From positions 1 through 33,500 of the forward strand of contig SVGO01000012.1 of NCBI GenBank assembly GCA_015056305.1: a stretch of 33,500 nt of DNA, read 5' to 3'. Shown here piece by piece: positions 1,586 to 32,118 of this stretch. The stretch comes from Clostridiales bacterium. GTDB taxonomy: Bacteria; Bacillota; Clostridia; Christensenellales; Aristaeellaceae. Numbering within the stretch: the first letter of the stretch is position 1; each line of letters opens with the position of its first letter. The notes beneath the pieces are model-generated. The model ran no database searches. It had not been told where the DNA came from and worked only from the letters and a program-made list of their open reading frames with translations. Both the position numbers and the translations under genes were made by a program.

Positions 1586-1822
1586 ATGAACGCGAAGAAC
1601 AACGTATTTGTGGCGCCGCTTCTCGCGCTTGTCATGATCATGAGCAGCGCGATGGCGGCCGTGTACACCTTCGATCCGGCCACCCCCCACACCGGCGTGA
1701 TGACGGGGAGTTCAACAACGTGCTGCGCAGGTGATAAAAGGATCTTCGATTTTAAAAATACATTCCAACAAGATTTGCCTTCCCCTATGGGGAAGGTGGC
1801 AGTCCGAAGGACTGACGGATGA
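1586..1822 (+). pseudogene. Broken secreted-protein gene fragment
   Basis: From ATG 1586 the frame encodes a convincing signal peptide (MNAKNN, then a hydrophobic stretch ending SSAMA) and a short mature part beginning AVYTFDPATP. The open frame then runs into repeat B at 1778 and stops at 1822, so its end is not real protein. In another frame the bases after about 1695 read DGEFNNVLRR followed by two stops, which looks like a natural C-terminus reached through a frameshift. No good Shine-Dalgarno precedes the start. I do not recognise the family. It is best read as the remnant of an exported protein; a very small intact secreted peptide is possible. Confidence 0.45.
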
Positions 1823-13916: not shown

Positions 13917-14960
13917 ATGGCCATCGAGCGGGGCAAAATCGTGATCATCGGCGCGGGGCATGTCGGCAGCGCCATTCTCAATTCACTGCTGGGCATGAAC
14001 CTGGCCAAGGAAATCGTGCTCATCAATCTGGACCGGGAGCAGGCGCTGGGCGAGGTGCTCGACGCCAGTCACACGCTCGCCTTTTCCTATGCGGCGGGCT
14101 GCGCCATCCGCGTGGGCGACTATGAGGACTGCCAGGGTGCCCAGATCATCATCAACACCGCCGGACCGTCCATCCAGCCGGGCGAGAAGCACGACCGCAT
14201 GGCACTGCTGGAAACAAACCTGCAGGTCGTCTCCCAGATCATGGACGGCATCACGCGCTATACGCGCGAGGCGATCCTCATCCATGTGACCAATCCGGTC
14301 GACGTGCTCACGTATTACTGCATGAAGAAATACGACTATCCGAGAGAAAAGATTTTCTCCACCGGCACGCTGCTGGATACCGCGCGCTTCAACACCATGC
14401 TCGCCGCTGCGCTGGGCATCGACGCGAAATCCGTGACCGGCTTTGTCCTCGGCGAGCATGGCGGCACGGCGTTCGTCCCGTGGAATACGGTCAACGTTGC
14501 GGGCATTCCCTTTGACCGGTTCACCGAGCAGTTTGATCTGAAGACGCCCATCGACCGCGAGAATCTCATCCGCGCGGTCAAGGCCAGCGGCATGGACATC
14601 ATCGAACTCAAGGGCTATACCTCCTCCGGCATCGCGCTGACGGTGTGCCGGGCGGTCTCCTCGATCCTGTTTAATTCGCATAGCGTGCTGCCGCTGTGCG
14701 TGATCCCGCAGGGCGAATACGGCCTTGAAAACGTCGCCATGAGCCTGCCGTGCATCCTTGGCGAAAACGGCATTGAGAAAATCCTCATCCTTCCGCTGGA
14801 CGAGGACGCCGAACGCGGCATGCGCGGATGCGACGAATTCCTGCGCAGCATCATCCACAACATCGATATGGAAACCGGAAAGGTGCATCCAGAAGGCTGG
14901 CTCGGCGGCTTCCCGCCCCAGCACACGAATCCGGCGTGCATCGGCAAGCCGGTGTCCTGA
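13917..14960 (+). CDS. L-lactate dehydrogenase-like 2-hydroxyacid dehydrogenase
   Basis: A 347-residue NAD-dependent enzyme of the lactate/malate dehydrogenase family. The Rossmann motif GAGHVGSA is near residues 11-18 and LINLDREQ ends strand beta-2 with the NAD-selective Asp. NPVDVLTYY and the catalytic GEHGG follow; standard enzymes read GEHGDS. The loop normally carrying Gln102 (lactate) or Arg102 (malate), ANQKPGETR in typical LDH, reads PSIQPGEKHDR, so substrate choice is uncertain. It is about 30 residues longer than most LDHs, with a C-terminal tail. The start is set by GGAGG at 13903-13907; the frame is open 27 codons further, but those read as non-coding. Confidence 0.82.
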   Translation: MAIERGKIVIIGAGHVGSAILNSLLGMNLAKEIVLINLDREQALGEVLDASHTLAFSYAAGCAIRVGDYEDCQGAQIIINTAGPSIQPGEKHDRMALLETNLQVVSQIMDGITRYTREAILIHVTNPVDVLTYYCMKKYDYPREKIFSTGTLLDTARFNTMLAAALGIDAKSVTGFVLGEHGGTAFVPWNTVNVAGIPFDRFTEQFDLKTPIDRENLIRAVKASGMDIIELKGYTSSGIALTVCRAVSSILFNSHSVLPLCVIPQGEYGLENVAMSLPCILGENGIEKILILPLDEDAERGMRGCDEFLRSIIHNIDMETGKVHPEGWLGGFPPQHTNPACIGKPVS

Positions 14961-14987
14961 GTGGGCTGTGCAAAATAACGCAGCCCC

Positions 14988-15016
14988 TTGAATAGAAGCT
15001 GCGCTTATGATATGCT
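14988..15016 (+). promoter_or_regulatory. Promoter of the small hydrophobic peptide gene
   Basis: TTGAAT at 14988-14993, a 17-base spacer and TATGCT at 15011-15016 with an extended -10 (TGA before it). Transcription should start near 15023, exactly where the 5' arm of the long-range repeat begins. Confidence 0.72.
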
Positions 15017-15084
15017 GACATTGTAGTCAAAAGGACTCGCACGGTAGCCCCGCTTTCTGCATTACGAAAGAGGGGTGATGCACG

Positions 15085-15168
15085 ATGGATAATCTGGAGC
15101 TGTTTAATCTGCCTCTGAATGTCGCTTCGCTGCTCGTTGCTGTTTACGCGTTAGGTCGCGCAAAATAA
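15085..15168 (+). CDS. 27-residue hydrophobic peptide, candidate type I toxin
   Basis: A short frame with a good ribosome site, AAAGAGGGG nine bases before ATG. The peptide begins MDNLELFNLP, has a hydrophobic middle (NVASLLVAVYAL) and ends in a basic GRAK, the plan of membrane-acting type I toxins. It has its own promoter at 14988 and a strong terminator at 15292. The mRNA's first 21 bases (15022-15042) can pair with 15250-15280 near its 3' end, which is typical of toxin mRNAs kept inactive until processed. An antisense RNA is predicted across its 3' region. I do not recognise the family by sequence. Toxicity is inference. Confidence 0.6.
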   Translation: MDNLELFNLPLNVASLLVAVYALGRAK

Positions 15169-15273
15169 AGCATGCCGCCGTGTAGAGTGCCATCTACCGG
15201 CGGCCTGATGCTTTTCGTGCTGTAACATTCGCAGTCAGCGAGTGTCACTGTGCGAGGCTCTCAACTTCCTCTT
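15160..15273 (-). ncRNA. Predicted antisense RNA, candidate antitoxin
   Basis: A strong minus-strand promoter, TTGACC (15303-15308), 17 bases, TAAAAT (15280-15285), would start an RNA near 15273. It would end at a long hairpin, AAGCAT-GCCGCCG pairing with CGGCGGC-ATGCTT (15168-15213), followed on the minus strand by TTTATTTT. The RNA of about 110 bases is complementary to the 3' untranslated part of the peptide mRNA, as RatA is to txpA. Confidence 0.6.
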
Positions 15274-15291
15274 GACTACATTTTACAACAA

Positions 15292-15330
15292 CAACGACCA
15301 GCGGTCAAGCCGCCGGTCGTTCTTTTTATT
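15292..15330 (+). terminator. Intrinsic terminator of the peptide mRNA
   Basis: Stem AACGACC-GCGG / CCGC-GGTCGTT, with one mismatch and a five-base loop, followed by CTTTTTATT. It contains the -35 box of the antisense promoter and overlaps the last codons of the convergent dipeptidase gene. Confidence 0.85.
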
Positions 15331-15931
15331 CGATTGGAAAATCGTAATAGACCTTCGGCAGATCGCACTTGAATGTATAATGCCACCACTCCTCGACGTA
15401 ATCGTCAAAGCCTGCGGCGAGCATGCCGCCGCGCAGCAATTCCCTGTTCGCCTTCTGTTGCGGCGTCACGCCTTCGTAATCATGCGAGGAAATCCTGGAG
15501 AACCAATCGAACTCGCCGCCCATGTCCAGCTCGTTGCCATCTTTATCTGTGAGCGTCAAGTCAACCGTCAACCCGCGCGAATGGCCGGAATACACGGCGA
15601 TGTATCCCTTGGGAAAGAGCTCGCTCTTATCCAGCTCCGGATAGAACTCTTCCTTCATCTTGATATCGTCCGTGTCCTTCGCCCAGCGGACAAAGTGATC
15701 GACCGCGCGCTGAGGACGATACGCATCGTAAATCAGCATGTATAACCCCTTGCGCTCAAATTCCTCCGCCGCAGCTTTCAGCGCCTGCGCCGCCTCGATG
15801 CGCAGCACGGATTTGGGCGCAAAATAGCCATCCACCGGGCAGCCGACAAAGTTGTGATCGCCCGCATAACGGATATCCTCACGCGCGGACGGAATGACGT
15901 CCTTGATGTAAACAAATCCTTCGGGAAGCAT
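15326..15931 (-). CDS. D-alanyl-D-alanine dipeptidase, VanX family
   Basis: A 201-residue zinc dipeptidase that splits D-Ala-D-Ala. All VanX active-site residues are present and almost at the same numbers: Arg72 (DAYRP), zinc ligands His117 and Asp124 (SGHSRGLTVD), Glu181 and His184 (EEWWHY). The frame extends upstream, but GGAGGG just before ATG 15931 and family alignment fix the start. No signal peptide is present, so it is cytoplasmic. No vanH, vanA, vanR or vanS neighbours are present, so a role in cell-wall peptide recycling or nutrient use (DdpX-like) is more likely than vancomycin resistance. Confidence 0.92.
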   Translation of the reverse strand: MLPEGFVYIKDVIPSAREDIRYAGDHNFVGCPVDGYFAPKSVLRIEAAQALKAAAEEFERKGLYMLIYDAYRPQRAVDHFVRWAKDTDDIKMKEEFYPELDKSELFPKGYIAVYSGHSRGLTVDLTLTDKDGNELDMGGEFDWFSRISSHDYEGVTPQQKANRELLRGGMLAAGFDDYVEEWWHYTFKCDLPKVYYDFPIE

Positions 15932-16085: not shown

Positions 16086-17762
16086 TTAGAACAGGCCCGT
16101 GATCTTGCCGGTCTCGTCGACGTCGATCTTCTCGGCCGCCGGCACCTTCGGCAGGCCCGGCATGGTCATGATGTCGCCGGTGAGCGCGACGATGAAGCCA
16201 GCGCCCGCGGAGACCTTCAGGTTGCGCACGGTGACGGTGAAGCCTTCCGGCGCGCCGAGCAGCTTCTGATCATCGGAGAAGGAATACTGCGTCTTGGCCA
16301 TGCAGATCGGATACTCGCCGAAGCCCAGCTCCTCGAGCTGCTTGGCCTGCTTCTTGGCGTTCGGGGTGAGCGCCACGCCCGCGCCGCGATAGACATTCTT
16401 CACGATCGCCTCGAGCTTCTTCTCAATGGAAGTCTCCAGCTCGTAGGCAAAGCGGAAGTTGTTCTCGGCATTCTCGCACAGGCGGACGACTTCCTCGGCC
16501 AGCTCCACGCCGCCGTCGCCGCCCTTGCCCCAGACCTCGGAGAGCGCCACATTCACGCCCAGCTCGCGGCACTTCTCGCGCACGAGCTCCAGTTCGGCCT
16601 CGGTGTCCATCGGGAAGCGGTTGATCGCGACCACGCAGGGCAGCTGATAGGTCTCGGTGATGTTGGACACATGGCGCAGCAGGTTCGGCAGACCCTTCGC
16701 CAGCGCCTCGAGGTTCTCATTGTTCAGGTCGGCCTTGGCCACGCCGCCGTGATGCTTGAGCGCGCGCACGGTCGCCACGACGACGACGGCAGCGGGCTTG
16801 AGGTTCACCTTGCGGCACTTGATATCCAGGAACTTCTCCGCGCCCAGGTCCGCGCCGAAGCCGGCCTCGGTCACGCAGTAGTCGCCTAGCTTCATCGCCA
16901 TGCGGGTCGCCATGATGGAGTTGCAGCCATGGGCAATGTTGGCGAACGGACCGCCGTGGATGAACGCCGGGGTGCCCTCCAGCGTCTGCACGAGGTTCGG
17001 CTTGAGCGCATCCTTGAGCAGCGCAGCCATCGCGCCGGCGGCCTTCAGGTCGCCCGCGGTGACGGGCTTGTCATCGTAGGTATAGCCGACGATGATGCGG
17101 GAGAGGCGCTCCTTGAGATCGGTGATGGAGGAGGACATGCAGAACACGGCCATGACCTCGGAGGCGACGGTGATGTCGAAGCCGTCCTCGCGCGGCACGC
17201 CCTGCATGCGGCCGCCCAGACCATCGATGACATTGCGCAGCTGGCGGTCGTTCATGTCCACGCAGCGCTTCCAGGTGATCTTCTTGACGTCGATGCCCAG
17301 CTGGTTGCCCTGCTGGATGTGGTTGTCCAGCATCGCGGCGAGCAGGTTGTTCGCCGCGCCGATGGCGTGGAAGTCACCGGTGAAGTGCAGGTTGATATCT
17401 TCCATCGGGACAACCTGCGCATAGCCGCCGCCGGCCGCGCCGCCCTTCACGCCGAAGACCGGGCCAAGGCTCGGCTCACGCAGCGCAAGGATCGCGTTCT
17501 TGCCGATCTTGCGCAGACCATCGGCCAGGCCGACGGACGTGGTGGTCTTGCCCTCGCCGGCCGGGGTCGGGGAGATGGCGGTGACCAGGATCAGCTTACC
17601 GTCCTCGCCCTCCACTTCGTTCAGCAGATTGTAGTCGATCTTGGCCTTGTAGTTGCCGTAGAGCTCCAGATACTTCTCATCCACGCCCGCCGTTGCCGCG
17701 ATCTCGCGAATGTTCTTCATTTCACACGCCTGTGCGATTTCAATGTCGGAAAGATAAGCCAT
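16086..17762 (-). CDS. fhs: Formate-tetrahydrofolate ligase
   Basis: A 558-residue cytoplasmic enzyme forming 10-formyl-THF from formate, THF and ATP. It feeds purine synthesis and one-carbon flow from serine, and in acetogens the methyl branch of the Wood-Ljungdahl pathway. The P-loop [11 protein letters not shown] lies at 65-75, followed by [36 protein letters not shown] and the C-terminal [20 protein letters not shown]. Length is that of the family. The frame is open to 17858, but that part is riboswitch leader; GAGGG eight bases before ATG 17762 fixes the start. Expression is controlled by the ZTP riboswitch directly upstream. serC and serA lie next to it, divergently. Confidence 0.97.
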
Positions 17763-17787
17763 AACAAATTCCCTCTCTTTCTTGCAA

Positions 17788-17819
17788 ACAAAAAGGCGCA
17801 CCGATACTCTCAGTGCGCC
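17788..17819 (-). terminator. Riboswitch-controlled terminator of fhs
   Basis: Stem GGCGCAC / GTGCGCC and a TTTTTG tail on the minus strand. Its 5' arm begins inside the conserved CTGGGC end of the ZTP aptamer, so ligand-bound aptamer and terminator compete for the same bases. Confidence 0.88.
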
Positions 17820-17895
17820 CAGACGGTCGGCATCAAGCGCACATGTGCGCCGCGGCACTTCCTGTGGGTCGTCCCACTTCCGTCAGTCATGCCGC
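17817..17895 (-). promoter_or_regulatory. ZTP (ZMP) riboswitch, pfl motif, upstream of fhs
   Basis: The minus strand shows the pfl consensus in order: CATGACTGACGGAAG, a GTGGG...CCCAC hairpin, CAGGAAGTGCCG, a linker hairpin (GCGCACATGTGCGC) and GCCGACCGTCTGGGC. ZTP riboswitches sense the purine intermediate that builds up when 10-formyl-THF is short and switch on genes such as fhs and purH. The overlapping terminator makes this an ON switch acting on transcription. Confidence 0.92.
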
Positions 17896-17973
17896 TGCAG
17901 GCTGTGCCTGCACCCATTTCCGAACTGCCTCTTCATCATAACGATACTCGGTGCTCGCAGCAAGGATTTTTGC
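17895..17973 (-). ncRNA. Conserved two-hairpin leader element, copy 1
   Basis: A 79-base element directly 5' of the ZTP aptamer. It shares GCAAAAAT-C-TGCTGCG-GCACCGA, exactly 23 bases, TTCGGAA-TGGG and a GC-rich hairpin with the copy at 27153-27231. CCGAG pairs with TTCGG through a G-U pair on this strand only. I do not recognise the class. Confidence 0.5.
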
Positions 17974-30119: not shown

Positions 30120-30209
30120 ATGCTCCCTTCGGGAGCGTGAAATCCGCCCTGCGGGCGGGTGAAGCTGCCCGCAGGGCAGTGAAGTTCGCCTGACGGCGAG
30201 TGAAGTTTG
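30120..30209 (+). repeat. Array of four hairpins joined by TGAA(A/G) linkers
   Basis: Four successive stem-loops with different stems (GCTCCC-TTCG-GGGAGC, CCGCCC/GGGCGG, CTGCCC/GGGCAG, TCGCC/GGCGA), separated by GTGAAAT, GTGAAG or TGAAGT. Stems vary while linkers are kept, so structure is what repeats. It lies in the 3' region of glgA. Confidence 0.8.
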
Positions 30210-30228
30210 GTTTTCAGGTAATTTAAAG

Positions 30229-30256
30229 GGCGCTGCCGATGGCAGCGCCTTTTTTG
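30229..30256 (+). terminator. Intrinsic terminator of glgA
   Basis: Perfect nine-pair stem GGCGCTGCC / GGCAGCGCC with a GAT loop and six T. Confidence 0.92.
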
Positions 30257-30261
30257 CGCAC

Positions 30262-30296
30262 AAAAAAGGAGAGGGCTGCCGCAGAAGCGGCAGCCC
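30262..30296 (-). terminator. Intrinsic terminator of the flavoprotein gene
   Basis: Perfect ten-pair stem GGGCTGCCGC / GCGGCAGCCC with a four-base loop. On the minus strand CTCTCC then six T follow. It stands back to back with the glgA terminator. Confidence 0.87.
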
Positions 30297-30322
30297 GAAG
30301 GAAGAAAGAAGAAGGAGACAGA

Positions 30323-32032
30323 TTAGTTCAGATTCGCAGCAGCGCTCGCGCCGGCGATGCGGCCATAGATTACCGCATGACCATACGCAGAACCACAGGT
30401 GTAGATGGTGCCGTAGAAGTTGCTGTTGGCCAGCTCACCAGCCGCATACAGGCCTTCCACAACGGAGCCATCCTCCTTGAGAACCTCGGCGTCGGGGGTA
30501 ATGCACAGACCGCCAATGGTGGTGGTACGCATCGGCGTGGTCAGTGCAACGGTATACGGAGCCTGAATGCCGAGGTTGTACTCAGCAGGCTTGCCAAATA
30601 CATCGTTATCCGTGCCGGCAGCAGCGTTATAAGCGTCGATGGTCGCCTGCACATTTTCAACCGGAGCGCCGATAATAGCAGCCAGCTCTTCAACGTTTGC
30701 GGCCTTTACAGCGTTCAGGTTATCCACCAGCCACTGCGTGTTGCTGTCAATGTTGTCGTCAAAGATAAACCAGAACTCATTCTCAACACCGGTAGCCAGC
30801 TGACGGCGCATCTCCGTGTAGATGGTCGGCTGAATGTTGGCCTCATTGATGAAGCGCTCGCCATTGGAATTGAGAATCATGATCTTGTGCGGAATGCTCA
30901 TGTCATAGCCGCCCGCAGACAGGGTAAGAGCCGCAAAGGTAGCGCCGCAGGTATCCCAGTCGTCGGTGAAACGAACCACCGCGCCAACCTTCTCCGCCAT
31001 GTCCAGACCGTCGCCGACGGTACCAGCACTGGCATTGCTGGCAACCTTCTCAGCGCCCGGCGTAGAATACTGCGCCAGCTTCTCGGTGCTGGAAGCGAAA
31101 CCGCCAGTCGCCAGCACGACGCCAGCCTTGGCATAAATCTTCTGCTCGCCGCCGTCCGCATAACGAACCACAGCGCCGACAACCTTGCCGTTCTCTTCAA
31201 TCAGATCAGTCGCAGCAACCTCCAGACGGATGTCCGCGCCAAGGCTATACGCATAGTCCGCAATATCGCCCATGATTTCCGGACCACGGCCCGGAAGACG
31301 ATTCGCCACGAGGGTCTCCGGAATCATCGGATAGCGCTGAACGTTCTCCGGATGCTTGACCATGTTGTCATAAATCCAGTTGTAGGTGTCCACGCTGGAA
31401 TCGATATACTTACGGACAACAGCGGCATCCGCGCGCTGCTCAGACTCGTTCATCAGGAACTCATAGAGTTCATCTGCGTCCATATCCTCTTCGCTGTCGG
31501 TTTCAATAGCCGCGCGAAGAATAACGCCGCCGGACATGGAAGAGCAGCCGCCCAGGAAGGAGAGCTTCTCCACCAGGATGACATTCGCGCCAGCCTCACG
31601 CGCAGAGATCGCGGCCGTCAGACCTGCGCCGCCGCCGCCGATGACCAGCACATCGGTGGTCTCGTCTTCACGGACAACCTCCTCAACAGCCACTTCCTTA
31701 GCAGTCAGCGTCGCACCGGAAGCAGCCAGAGCCTCAGCCGCAGCGCTCAGCGCCGCATTGCTGGAAATCGTCGCGCCGGCAACAGCATCCACATCCACAC
31801 GGTTGCCCGCGATCATGGCCTCCGCCAGTTTTTCAAGAGCAGCACCGCCAATGGCCGGAGTCTCGCCCGCGCCCTCGATCGCAACGTTTGTCAGGTTTGC
31901 ACCATCAATGGTCAGGGTCACGACGACGTCGCCGCCGAAGCCCTTCGCGGTCGCGCTCTGGGTCTGCGCAAAAGCACAGGCCGGAAGCATCAGCGCAAGA
32001 ATCATCAGCGCCGCAAGGATTTTCTTCATCAT
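30323..32032 (-). CDS. Secreted FMN-binding, FAD-dependent reductase
   Basis: A 569-residue extracytoplasmic flavoprotein of the fumarate/urocanate reductase group. A signal sequence (MMKKILAALMILALMLPACAFA, Cys19 in a weak lipobox) is followed by an FMN-binding domain (about 28-105) with DAVAGAT at 82-88, the ApbE flavinylation motif; FMN should attach to Thr88. The FAD domain starts at 127 (VLVIGGGGAGLTAA) and contains GGCSSMSGG and the C-terminal YGTIYTCGSAYGHAVIYGRIAG. Such proteins pass electrons from a membrane flavin chain to an external acceptor. AGGAGG lies close to the start. It is divergent from a TetR regulator with operators between. The acceptor is not predictable. Confidence 0.92.
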   Translation of the reverse strand: MMKKILAALMILALMLPACAFAQTQSATAKGFGGDVVVTLTIDGANLTNVAIEGAGETPAIGGAALEKLAEAMIAGNRVDVDAVAGATISSNAALSAAAEALAASGATLTAKEVAVEEVVREDETTDVLVIGGGGAGLTAAISAREAGANVILVEKLSFLGGCSSMSGGVILRAAIETDSEEDMDADELYEFLMNESEQRADAAVVRKYIDSSVDTYNWIYDNMVKHPENVQRYPMIPETLVANRLPGRGPEIMGDIADYAYSLGADIRLEVAATDLIEENGKVVGAVVRYADGGEQKIYAKAGVVLATGGFASSTEKLAQYSTPGAEKVASNASAGTVGDGLDMAEKVGAVVRFTDDWDTCGATFAALTLSAGGYDMSIPHKIMILNSNGERFINEANIQPTIYTEMRRQLATGVENEFWFIFDDNIDSNTQWLVDNLNAVKAANVEELAAIIGAPVENVQATIDAYNAAAGTDNDVFGKPAEYNLGIQAPYTVALTTPMRTTTIGGLCITPDAEVLKEDGSVVEGLYAAGELANSNFYGTIYTCGSAYGHAVIYGRIAGASAAANLN

Positions 32033-32053
32033 TTTCTCCTCCTATTTACTTTT

Positions 32054-32092
32054 ATACTCAAGTATCATACTCAAGTATCGTTCTTGAGTATG
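32054..32092. promoter_or_regulatory. Operator cluster between the flavoprotein and tetR genes
   Basis: ATACTCAAGTAT occurs twice in direct repeat (32054-32065 and 32067-32078; each is a palindrome ATACT-CA-AGTAT). CATACTCAAG (32066-32075) is also perfectly inverted at 32083-32092 (CTTGAGTATG) with seven bases between. The cluster lies just downstream of the flavoprotein -10 box, right for TetR repression. Confidence 0.8.
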
Positions 32093-32118
32093 ATATCATG
32101 AAAGAATGAAATATGCAA
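32090..32118 (-). promoter_or_regulatory. Promoter of the flavoprotein gene
   Basis: TTGCAT (32113-32118), 17 bases, TATCAT (32090-32095) with an extended -10 TGA on the minus strand. The -10 overlaps the end of the inverted operator. Confidence 0.75.

Follow-up and report, generated by a model that had tools for sequence, protein, structure and literature searches.

The DNA analysed here is a 33,500-nt stretch of a Clostridiales genome (the window), in which positions 14988-15330 correspond to one copy of a repeated unit of 300 nt. This copy is flanked by a dehydrogenase gene (lactate/malate type, ending at 14960) and a D-Ala-D-Ala dipeptidase gene (ending at 15326), which are mutually convergent. 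From left to right, it consists of a promoter and a 5' arm, then of a ribosome-site hairpin and the peptide ORF, and then of a central hairpin, a 3' arm and a convergent promoter. The sense promoter (TTGAAT, 17 nt, TATGCT; 14988-15016, + strand) comprises a -35 box at 14988-14993 and a -10 box at 15011-15016, with a TG one base upstream of the latter; it scores 8/12, below the cut-off of the promoter scan, and is therefore not listed by it. Transcription predicted from the -10 box would begin at ~15023 and place the 5' arm of a long-distance pairing (TGTAGTCAAAAGGACTCGCACGGT; 15022-15045, +) at the extreme 5' end of a toxin mRNA of ~306 nt (15023-15328, +), as predicted from promoter and terminator. 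A hairpin formed by GCCCCGCUUUC and GAAAGAGGGG (15047-15076, +) covers the Shine-Dalgarno sequence and precedes the ORF (15085-15168, +) of a 27-residue hydrophobic peptide (MDNLELFNLPLNVASLLVAVYALGRAK), the proposed membrane toxin. It is followed by the central hairpin AAAGC..GCCGCCGTGTAG/CTACCGGCGGC..GCTTTT (15166-15216), a likely terminator of the antisense RNA that is possibly bidirectional, and by the 3' arm (ACTGTGCGAG and TCCTCTTGACTACA; 15247-15280, +), the partner of the 5' arm. On the opposite strand, the promoter TTGACC-17-TAAAAT (15280-15308, -), whose -10 box abuts the 3' arm, would drive a putative antitoxin antisense RNA of ~112 nt (15162-15273, -), delimited from this promoter and from the hairpin plus TTTATTTT. 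Finally, the sense terminator (hairpin and T-run; 15291-15328, +) contains the antisense -35 box in its loop.

The promoter, the 27-residue ORF and the convergent promoter TTGACC-17-TAAAAT announced by the original prediction are all present in this segment. The pairing that it proposed between the mRNA 5' end and 15250-15280 is borne out as well, positions 15022-15035 being complementary to 15267-15280 at 13 of 14 bases and 15036-15045 to 15247-15256 at 9 of 10. The predicted fold of the + strand RNA 15022-15330, in which the ends are paired, has a z-score of -6.8, and none of 100 shuffles is equally stable. Taken alone, the antisense promoter is unremarkable in the window (one found, with 0.8 expected after shuffling 14500-15800), and the terminator scan of the window lists only the right end (~15292-15321, both strands), leaving the central hairpin unlisted. 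It is the stability of the fold, together with a layout that recurs in relatives with covariation, that puts the locus above chance. Elsewhere in the window, a ZMP/ZTP riboswitch (RF01750, 52.8 bits for a cut-off of 39; 17810-17900, -) lies close to where the 16086-17858 (-) frame starts, and a Gut-1 RNA (RF01706, 52.1 bits for a cut-off of 50; 30135-30211, +) is located just upstream of a 620-aa frame (30239-32101).

Copies of the unit and their distribution

A plain DNA search retrieved a second copy in the same genome and further copies in relatives, the clear matches making up a set of 17 copies and the weaker ones being taken up later, with the first covariance model. A half unit at a contig end (G007:C57) was never counted among them; the last 160 bases of this locus (L048) hold the right half of a unit, with the antisense promoter and a 3' arm of the window type. 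The 17 copies recognisably keep the -35/-10 pair, the 5' arm, the hairpin ending in the ribosome site, a hydrophobic-peptide ORF of 25 to 31 codons with basic residues close to its end, the GCCGCCG-type central hairpin, the 3' arm and the ATTNT...GTCAA motif of the reversed antisense promoter. The homologues with peptide, both promoters and end pairing on which the original prediction depended are thus available in these 17 copies, with the 3' arm decayed in at least one of them (G026_C19), and the covariance search that it had put forward as a check added many more copies beyond this set. Three plain hairpins in which no ORF or arms were seen (G006_C25, G028_C32 and G005_C10) and a remnant (G014_C79) were rejected.

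Among the covariance models, R1 (3' half) matched 11 of the 29 genomes of the genus at E ≤ 0.01, including copies with quite different arms (e.g. GTAGGCAGGAAGG with CCTTCCTGCCTAC), and R2 (5' end), which recognises one subfamily only, matched only 4 of 150 family genomes. R3, a full-length model including the end pairing and built from six copies of a second subfamily, matched 111 of 308 family genomes in 31 of 50 genera at E ≤ 0.01, with a weak tail that includes the central hairpin by itself, and 64 of the 308 in 16 genera (hand count) at E ≤ 1e-10. Trained without the window copy, it finds this copy at 3e-16. By hand count, at least six copies are present in the own genome (reverse-strand hairpin rows left out) and eleven in the relative G011, one of them without ORF. 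Tandem arrays occur in G077, G018, G007, G008 and G244. At L173 and L179 (G077), L104 (G018), L166, L169 and L182, two to four units follow each other a few hundred bases apart, and some units of tandem arrays encode identical peptides.

A restriction of the unit to the family was suggested by an order-level sample (297 genomes), in which 13 genomes outside the family were matched, all weakly (best 6e-6) and by the central hairpin or a much shortened form. This view was overturned by a class-level sample (245 genomes): a match at E ≤ 1e-4 was found in 24 of them, own genome included, and some are full units on reading. The exact 5'-end pattern occurs at eight places in genome contigs and at one in viral contigs, and blastn in phages and plasmids gave no match above the cut-off. 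The sole indication seen that phages might carry the unit is a full copy (L057:2679-2974, -) on a contig of 6.7 kb with a viral label (IMG/VR).

For the comparisons across copies, 109 copies were selected by hand among the loci already retrieved and the listed R3 matches, best scores first and with a spread of genera; this non-random set has nine loci in common with the 17-copy set. Twelve of the 121 R3 matches, which are short, weak or on the reverse strand, were not extracted, yet they are rows in the covariation and G-U/A-C counts. L142 is truncated at its 3' end and was excluded from the swap, promoter, ribosome-site and terminator counts, but not from the pN/pS comparison. Several copies are apparently decayed: L190:711-1092 (-) is longer and without ORF, L129:1501-1717 (+) is shortened, L109 at ~1686-1771 (+) retains only a remnant of the peptide end, and L099 (G025:C5) has lost its ATG start.

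Conserved features of the peptide and of the two predicted RNAs

A short hydrophobic ORF is present in 108 of the 109 extracted copies, the search itself having required a hydrophobic frame, and 104 of these ORFs encode 24 to 33 residues. L190 has no ORF; L123 (43 aa) and L129 (20 aa) are counted as ORFs yet omitted from the peptide list. There are 102 distinct peptides with a median length of 28 residues, and 107 of the ORFs start with ATG. In 29 disjoint pairs, mean pN is 0.10 and mean pS is 0.36, with pN lower than pS in 27 of the 29; the peptide is under purifying selection. The window peptide has no match in Pfam, NCBIfam or PHROGs, and six to ten family peptides searched against each of these libraries gave sub-cut-off matches only, the better ones being Hol_Tox (7e-4), symporter small accessory protein and Heimdall-CTERM (0.012 each) and YpmT (0.025). 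In the same vein, Rfam has no match over 14988-15330 at gathering score, and at E ≤ 1 only STnc310 appears (18.8 of 40 bits).

The antisense promoter reaches at least 10/12 in 107 of 108 copies, 37 of which display a perfect TTGACA/TATAAT (shuffled mean 5.9), and the sense promoter reaches at least 8/12 in 102 of 108 (shuffled mean 6.0). Moreover, the predicted antisense start falls within the paired 3' arm in all 108 copies (~15273 in the window), so that the first nucleotides of the antitoxin would equal part of the mRNA 5' arm. Where the central hairpin could be located (99 copies), the 12 bases before it contain on average 7.1 A and the 12 bases after it 5.3 T, so that it probably ends the antisense RNA. 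A strict scan for unbulged hairpins finds the central antisense terminator in 36 of 108 copies (3.9 when shuffled) and the right-end sense terminator in 42 of 108 (3 when shuffled). Since such strict terminators occur in a minority of copies, there is less certainty about where the RNAs end than about where they start. Judging from the sequence, the central hairpin is the most likely end of the antisense RNA in the window, which would then stop at ~15162, overlapping the toxin stop codon, and measure ~112 nt.

The long-distance pairing of the mRNA ends covaries among the copies. In the alignment of the 121 R3 matches, which was fitted to the structure and whose members were partly selected for end pairing, 92.9% of cells pair and none of 500 shuffles reaches any of the measures; in the end helix, changes on both sides are found in 12 of 13 pairs, and sliding the partner abolishes the signal. 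Because this alignment was fitted to the structure, we also compared own and swapped ends without any alignment. The mean duplex energy of 104 non-redundant copies is -25.8 kcal/mol with their own ends versus -17.9 kcal/mol with swapped ends, a result that none of 5000 permutations equals, and the 17 copies collected by DNA similarity, with no structure model involved, give -31.6 versus -27.8 (0 of 20000 as good). The own 3' arm outranks all other partners in 22 of the 104 copies and is in the top tenth in 69. In four of the six copies of the own genome, but not in the window copy, no other 3' arm pairs better with the 5' arm than that of the same copy. As the own partner is not always the best one, close copies could cross-pair.

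The type of base changes is also informative about the strand on which selection acts. The ribosome-site hairpin has double changes in 8 of 8 pairs and 165 G-U against 22 A-C, an excess that points to selection on the + strand RNA. For the end helix, the ratio is 60 to 31, with one of the 13 pairs (columns 2 and 549, 38 cells unpaired) omitted from the count, and the two helices of the central hairpin exhibit little bias (13 to 15 and 33 to 18). Such a pattern is expected if the end helix and the ribosome-site hairpin act in the mRNA and the central hairpin in both RNAs. By eye, an extra GTAG at the mRNA start of G011_C159, G026_C64, G025_C145 and G025_C5 can pair with a CTAC past the antisense -10 box, which would lengthen the end helix outward. 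In copies from other genera (L140, L141, L185, L193, L196 and others), a hairpin absent from the window copy lies between the -10 box and the 5' arm and would put a stem-loop at the mRNA start; a loose scan finds it in 71 of 108 copies versus 33.0 when shuffled.

Concerning the ribosome site, its mean unpaired probability over 107 copies is 0.19, compared with 0.34 for the RNA interior, and it is below 0.3 in 88 of them. In the window copy, the bases tested at the site are unpaired at 0.31 in the full RNA and at 0.19-0.24 after 3' truncation. Since the site is no more open once the 3' end is removed, it is the local stem, not the end pairing, that hides it in these folds. The end pairing would then have another role, likely in protecting the RNA ends or in timing the pairing with the antisense RNA.

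Relation to Hol_Tox and competing explanations

Peptides of most other genera in the family begin with M-S/T-x-Y-E, and six of 54 relatives of this type match Hol_Tox (PF16935) at E ≤ 1, the best with an E-value of 7e-4 and 19.8 bits for a cut-off of 23.3. We take this Pfam entry to be the one covering the BsrE/BsrH group of B. subtilis, and its superfamily presumably corresponds to BsrE/TxpA-like toxins; the Pfam model has matches in B. subtilis and L. lactis. For profile comparison, 54 MTDYE-type peptides (A7) and 29 peptides of the window group (A8) were hand-sorted from 100 listed peptides plus some others, those left out being mostly near-duplicates, and were set against four Hol_Tox peptides (A9). 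The hhalign probabilities are 94.6% for A7-A9, 95.9% for A8-A7 and 64.8% for A8-A9, and none of 150 column-shuffled controls reaches any of the three values; the direct link of the window subfamily to Hol_Tox (A8-A9, probability 65) is thus the weakest. The likeness consists of a short peptide with one hydrophobic stretch, a basic tail and, in most genera of the family, the M-S/T-x-Y-E start.

Nine loci outside the family were found by R3; the peptides of four exceed the Hol_Tox cut-off, and several loci have matched ends, such as L286 with TGAGGTAATCGG and its complement. Conversely, R3 responds weakly or not at all to the four Hol_Tox loci found by Pfam (L245 1e-5, L244 0.004, L243 0.08, L246 none). 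Inverted repeats between the 5' and 3' ends were noticed by eye, with no chance control, in the Hol_Tox loci L243 and L244 and in out-of-family loci such as L281, L285 and L286, and the Hol_Tox loci L245 and L246 have repeats of 7-8 bases only. The locus had been announced as undescribed: this holds in that no Rfam, Pfam or NCBIfam entry matches it, but not for the peptide, which profile comparison identifies as a distant relative of Hol_Tox.

Based on these comparisons of sequences, the unit is very probably a chromosomal type I toxin-antitoxin module of the Hol_Tox superfamily, belonging to a branch that has diverged and expanded in this lineage. The initial reading of the locus as a type I system gains support from the conserved peptide, the covarying end pairing and the kept antisense promoter. 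To our knowledge, this well-supported branch has no name.

Inverted arms, many scattered copies and the absence of the unit between the same two genes in relatives could also recall a small MITE-like mobile element, with terminal inverted repeats, incidental promoters and an incidental short frame. However, the arms differ between copies yet match within each copy, G-U prevails over A-C in the ribosome-site hairpin (165 versus 22) as in the end helix (60 versus 31), and selection acts on the peptide, which makes such an element very improbable; nor is a target duplication visible, even if the divergence of the two intergenic stretches without the unit could mask one. An attenuator or other cis-regulatory RNA serving the dehydrogenase or the dipeptidase gene, with an accidental short frame, would fit the position of the unit between the convergent ends of these genes in the window. 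This is scarcely credible given the other neighbours found at the other copies examined, the two syntenic relatives without the unit and the conservation of the peptide. Indeed, among 23 fetched dipeptidase-gene loci, the dehydrogenase gene adjoins in two besides the own one, and both are without the unit.

The one rival to be taken seriously is a non-toxic small membrane protein (e.g. an accessory or stress peptide) tuned by antisense RNA. Purifying selection and RNA control say nothing on toxicity, and 20 neighbouring frames scanned included eight named by Pfam, none of those a phage gene. Against this, the Hol_Tox relationship fits toxin modules better, and the many divergent copies, the tandem arrays and the absence of the unit between the same genes in two relatives argue in the same sense, so that we regard a harmless peptide as improbable.

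Proposed control and comparison with known type I systems

As a toxin-antitoxin module, the unit could function as follows. The mRNA would fold into an end-closed, poorly translated form, and a short, strongly transcribed antisense RNA would pair with its 3' UTR over the stretch that runs from the 3' arm back to the stop codon of the toxin ORF, thereby competing with the mRNA's own 5' arm for the 3' arm. The sense-antisense duplex may then be cut by RNase III, as for txpA/RatA. The peptide would be made only when the antisense RNA fails, and would then harm the cell's own membrane. A broader and doubtful proposal, which we make tentatively, is that of a strand-exchange switch, in which closed-loop competition for the 3' arm, and not a hidden ribosome site alone, would be how modules of the Hol_Tox type were originally controlled in Bacillota. 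If the toxin-antitoxin reading is right, modules of the Hol_Tox type reach uncultured gut Clostridia, where they go unrecognised by the libraries tried and can be numerous per genome. The peptide is too short and diverged for protein searches and the RNA anatomy finds the unit, which opens the way to its mapping where Pfam fails. Besides, the covarying end pairing provides a concrete and testable claim on how the mRNA would be kept silent.

Convergent or overlapping RNAs and a small hydrophobic toxin are shared with fst/RNAII (par) and ldr/rdl. Loci of ldr are multi-copy or tandem, and par possesses direct repeats and a shared terminator; unlike in par, the repeats of the unit are inverted and constitute the mRNA's own two ends, and the window peptide has no Fst match in Pfam or NCBIfam. 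The toxins of bsrG/SR4 and txpA/RatA are longer than the peptide of the unit. Many known type I modules are phage-linked, whereas the Pfam-named neighbours of the unit are not phage genes. A full-text literature search of partial coverage, judged on titles and the start of abstracts, contained no paper on the unit in these bacteria among the matches listed. In the excerpts used of a review on Clostridia, an earlier search is described that found TxpA-like or Fst-like sequences in two clostridial species only, and the C. difficile modules covered there are unrelated (PMC6563280).

Long-distance 5'-3' pairing of the toxin mRNA relates the unit to aapA/IsoA of Helicobacter and to hok/Sok. In the consulted part of the literature on these systems, such pairing is a known means of control for aapA and hok, and keeps the full-length aapA mRNA inert (PMC6733600). 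Their peptides and hosts are nevertheless unrelated to those of the unit, and their anti-Shine-Dalgarno sequence resides at the 3' end. Here, according to the predicted fold, the Shine-Dalgarno sequence is not sequestered by the 3' end: the local stem 15047-15076 holds it, also in the 3'-truncated RNA, and the 5' arm lies upstream of this stem. The parallel with Hok that had been drawn initially fits less well for this reason, the ribosome site being hidden by the local stem and not by the 3' arm.

The parallel with TxpA and BsrG proves more apt. In B. subtilis, PMC6562991 describes a ribosome site held in a short stem for txpA, bsrE and bsrG, with an antitoxin that pairs at the 3' end and leads to degradation, as well as convergent genes for bsrG/SR4 and txpA/RatA, whose 3' overlap provides a complementary stretch of 100-140 bp. 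TxpA/BsrG form a toxin family apart from BsrE/BsrH, and the modules are located on prophages or on the skin element, as stated in the excerpts of PMC6563280; unlike them, the copies of the unit examined are not visibly on phages. With bsrG/SR4 and txpA/RatA as portrayed in these excerpts, the unit nonetheless has in common the convergent arrangement, the 3' overlap and the hidden ribosome site.
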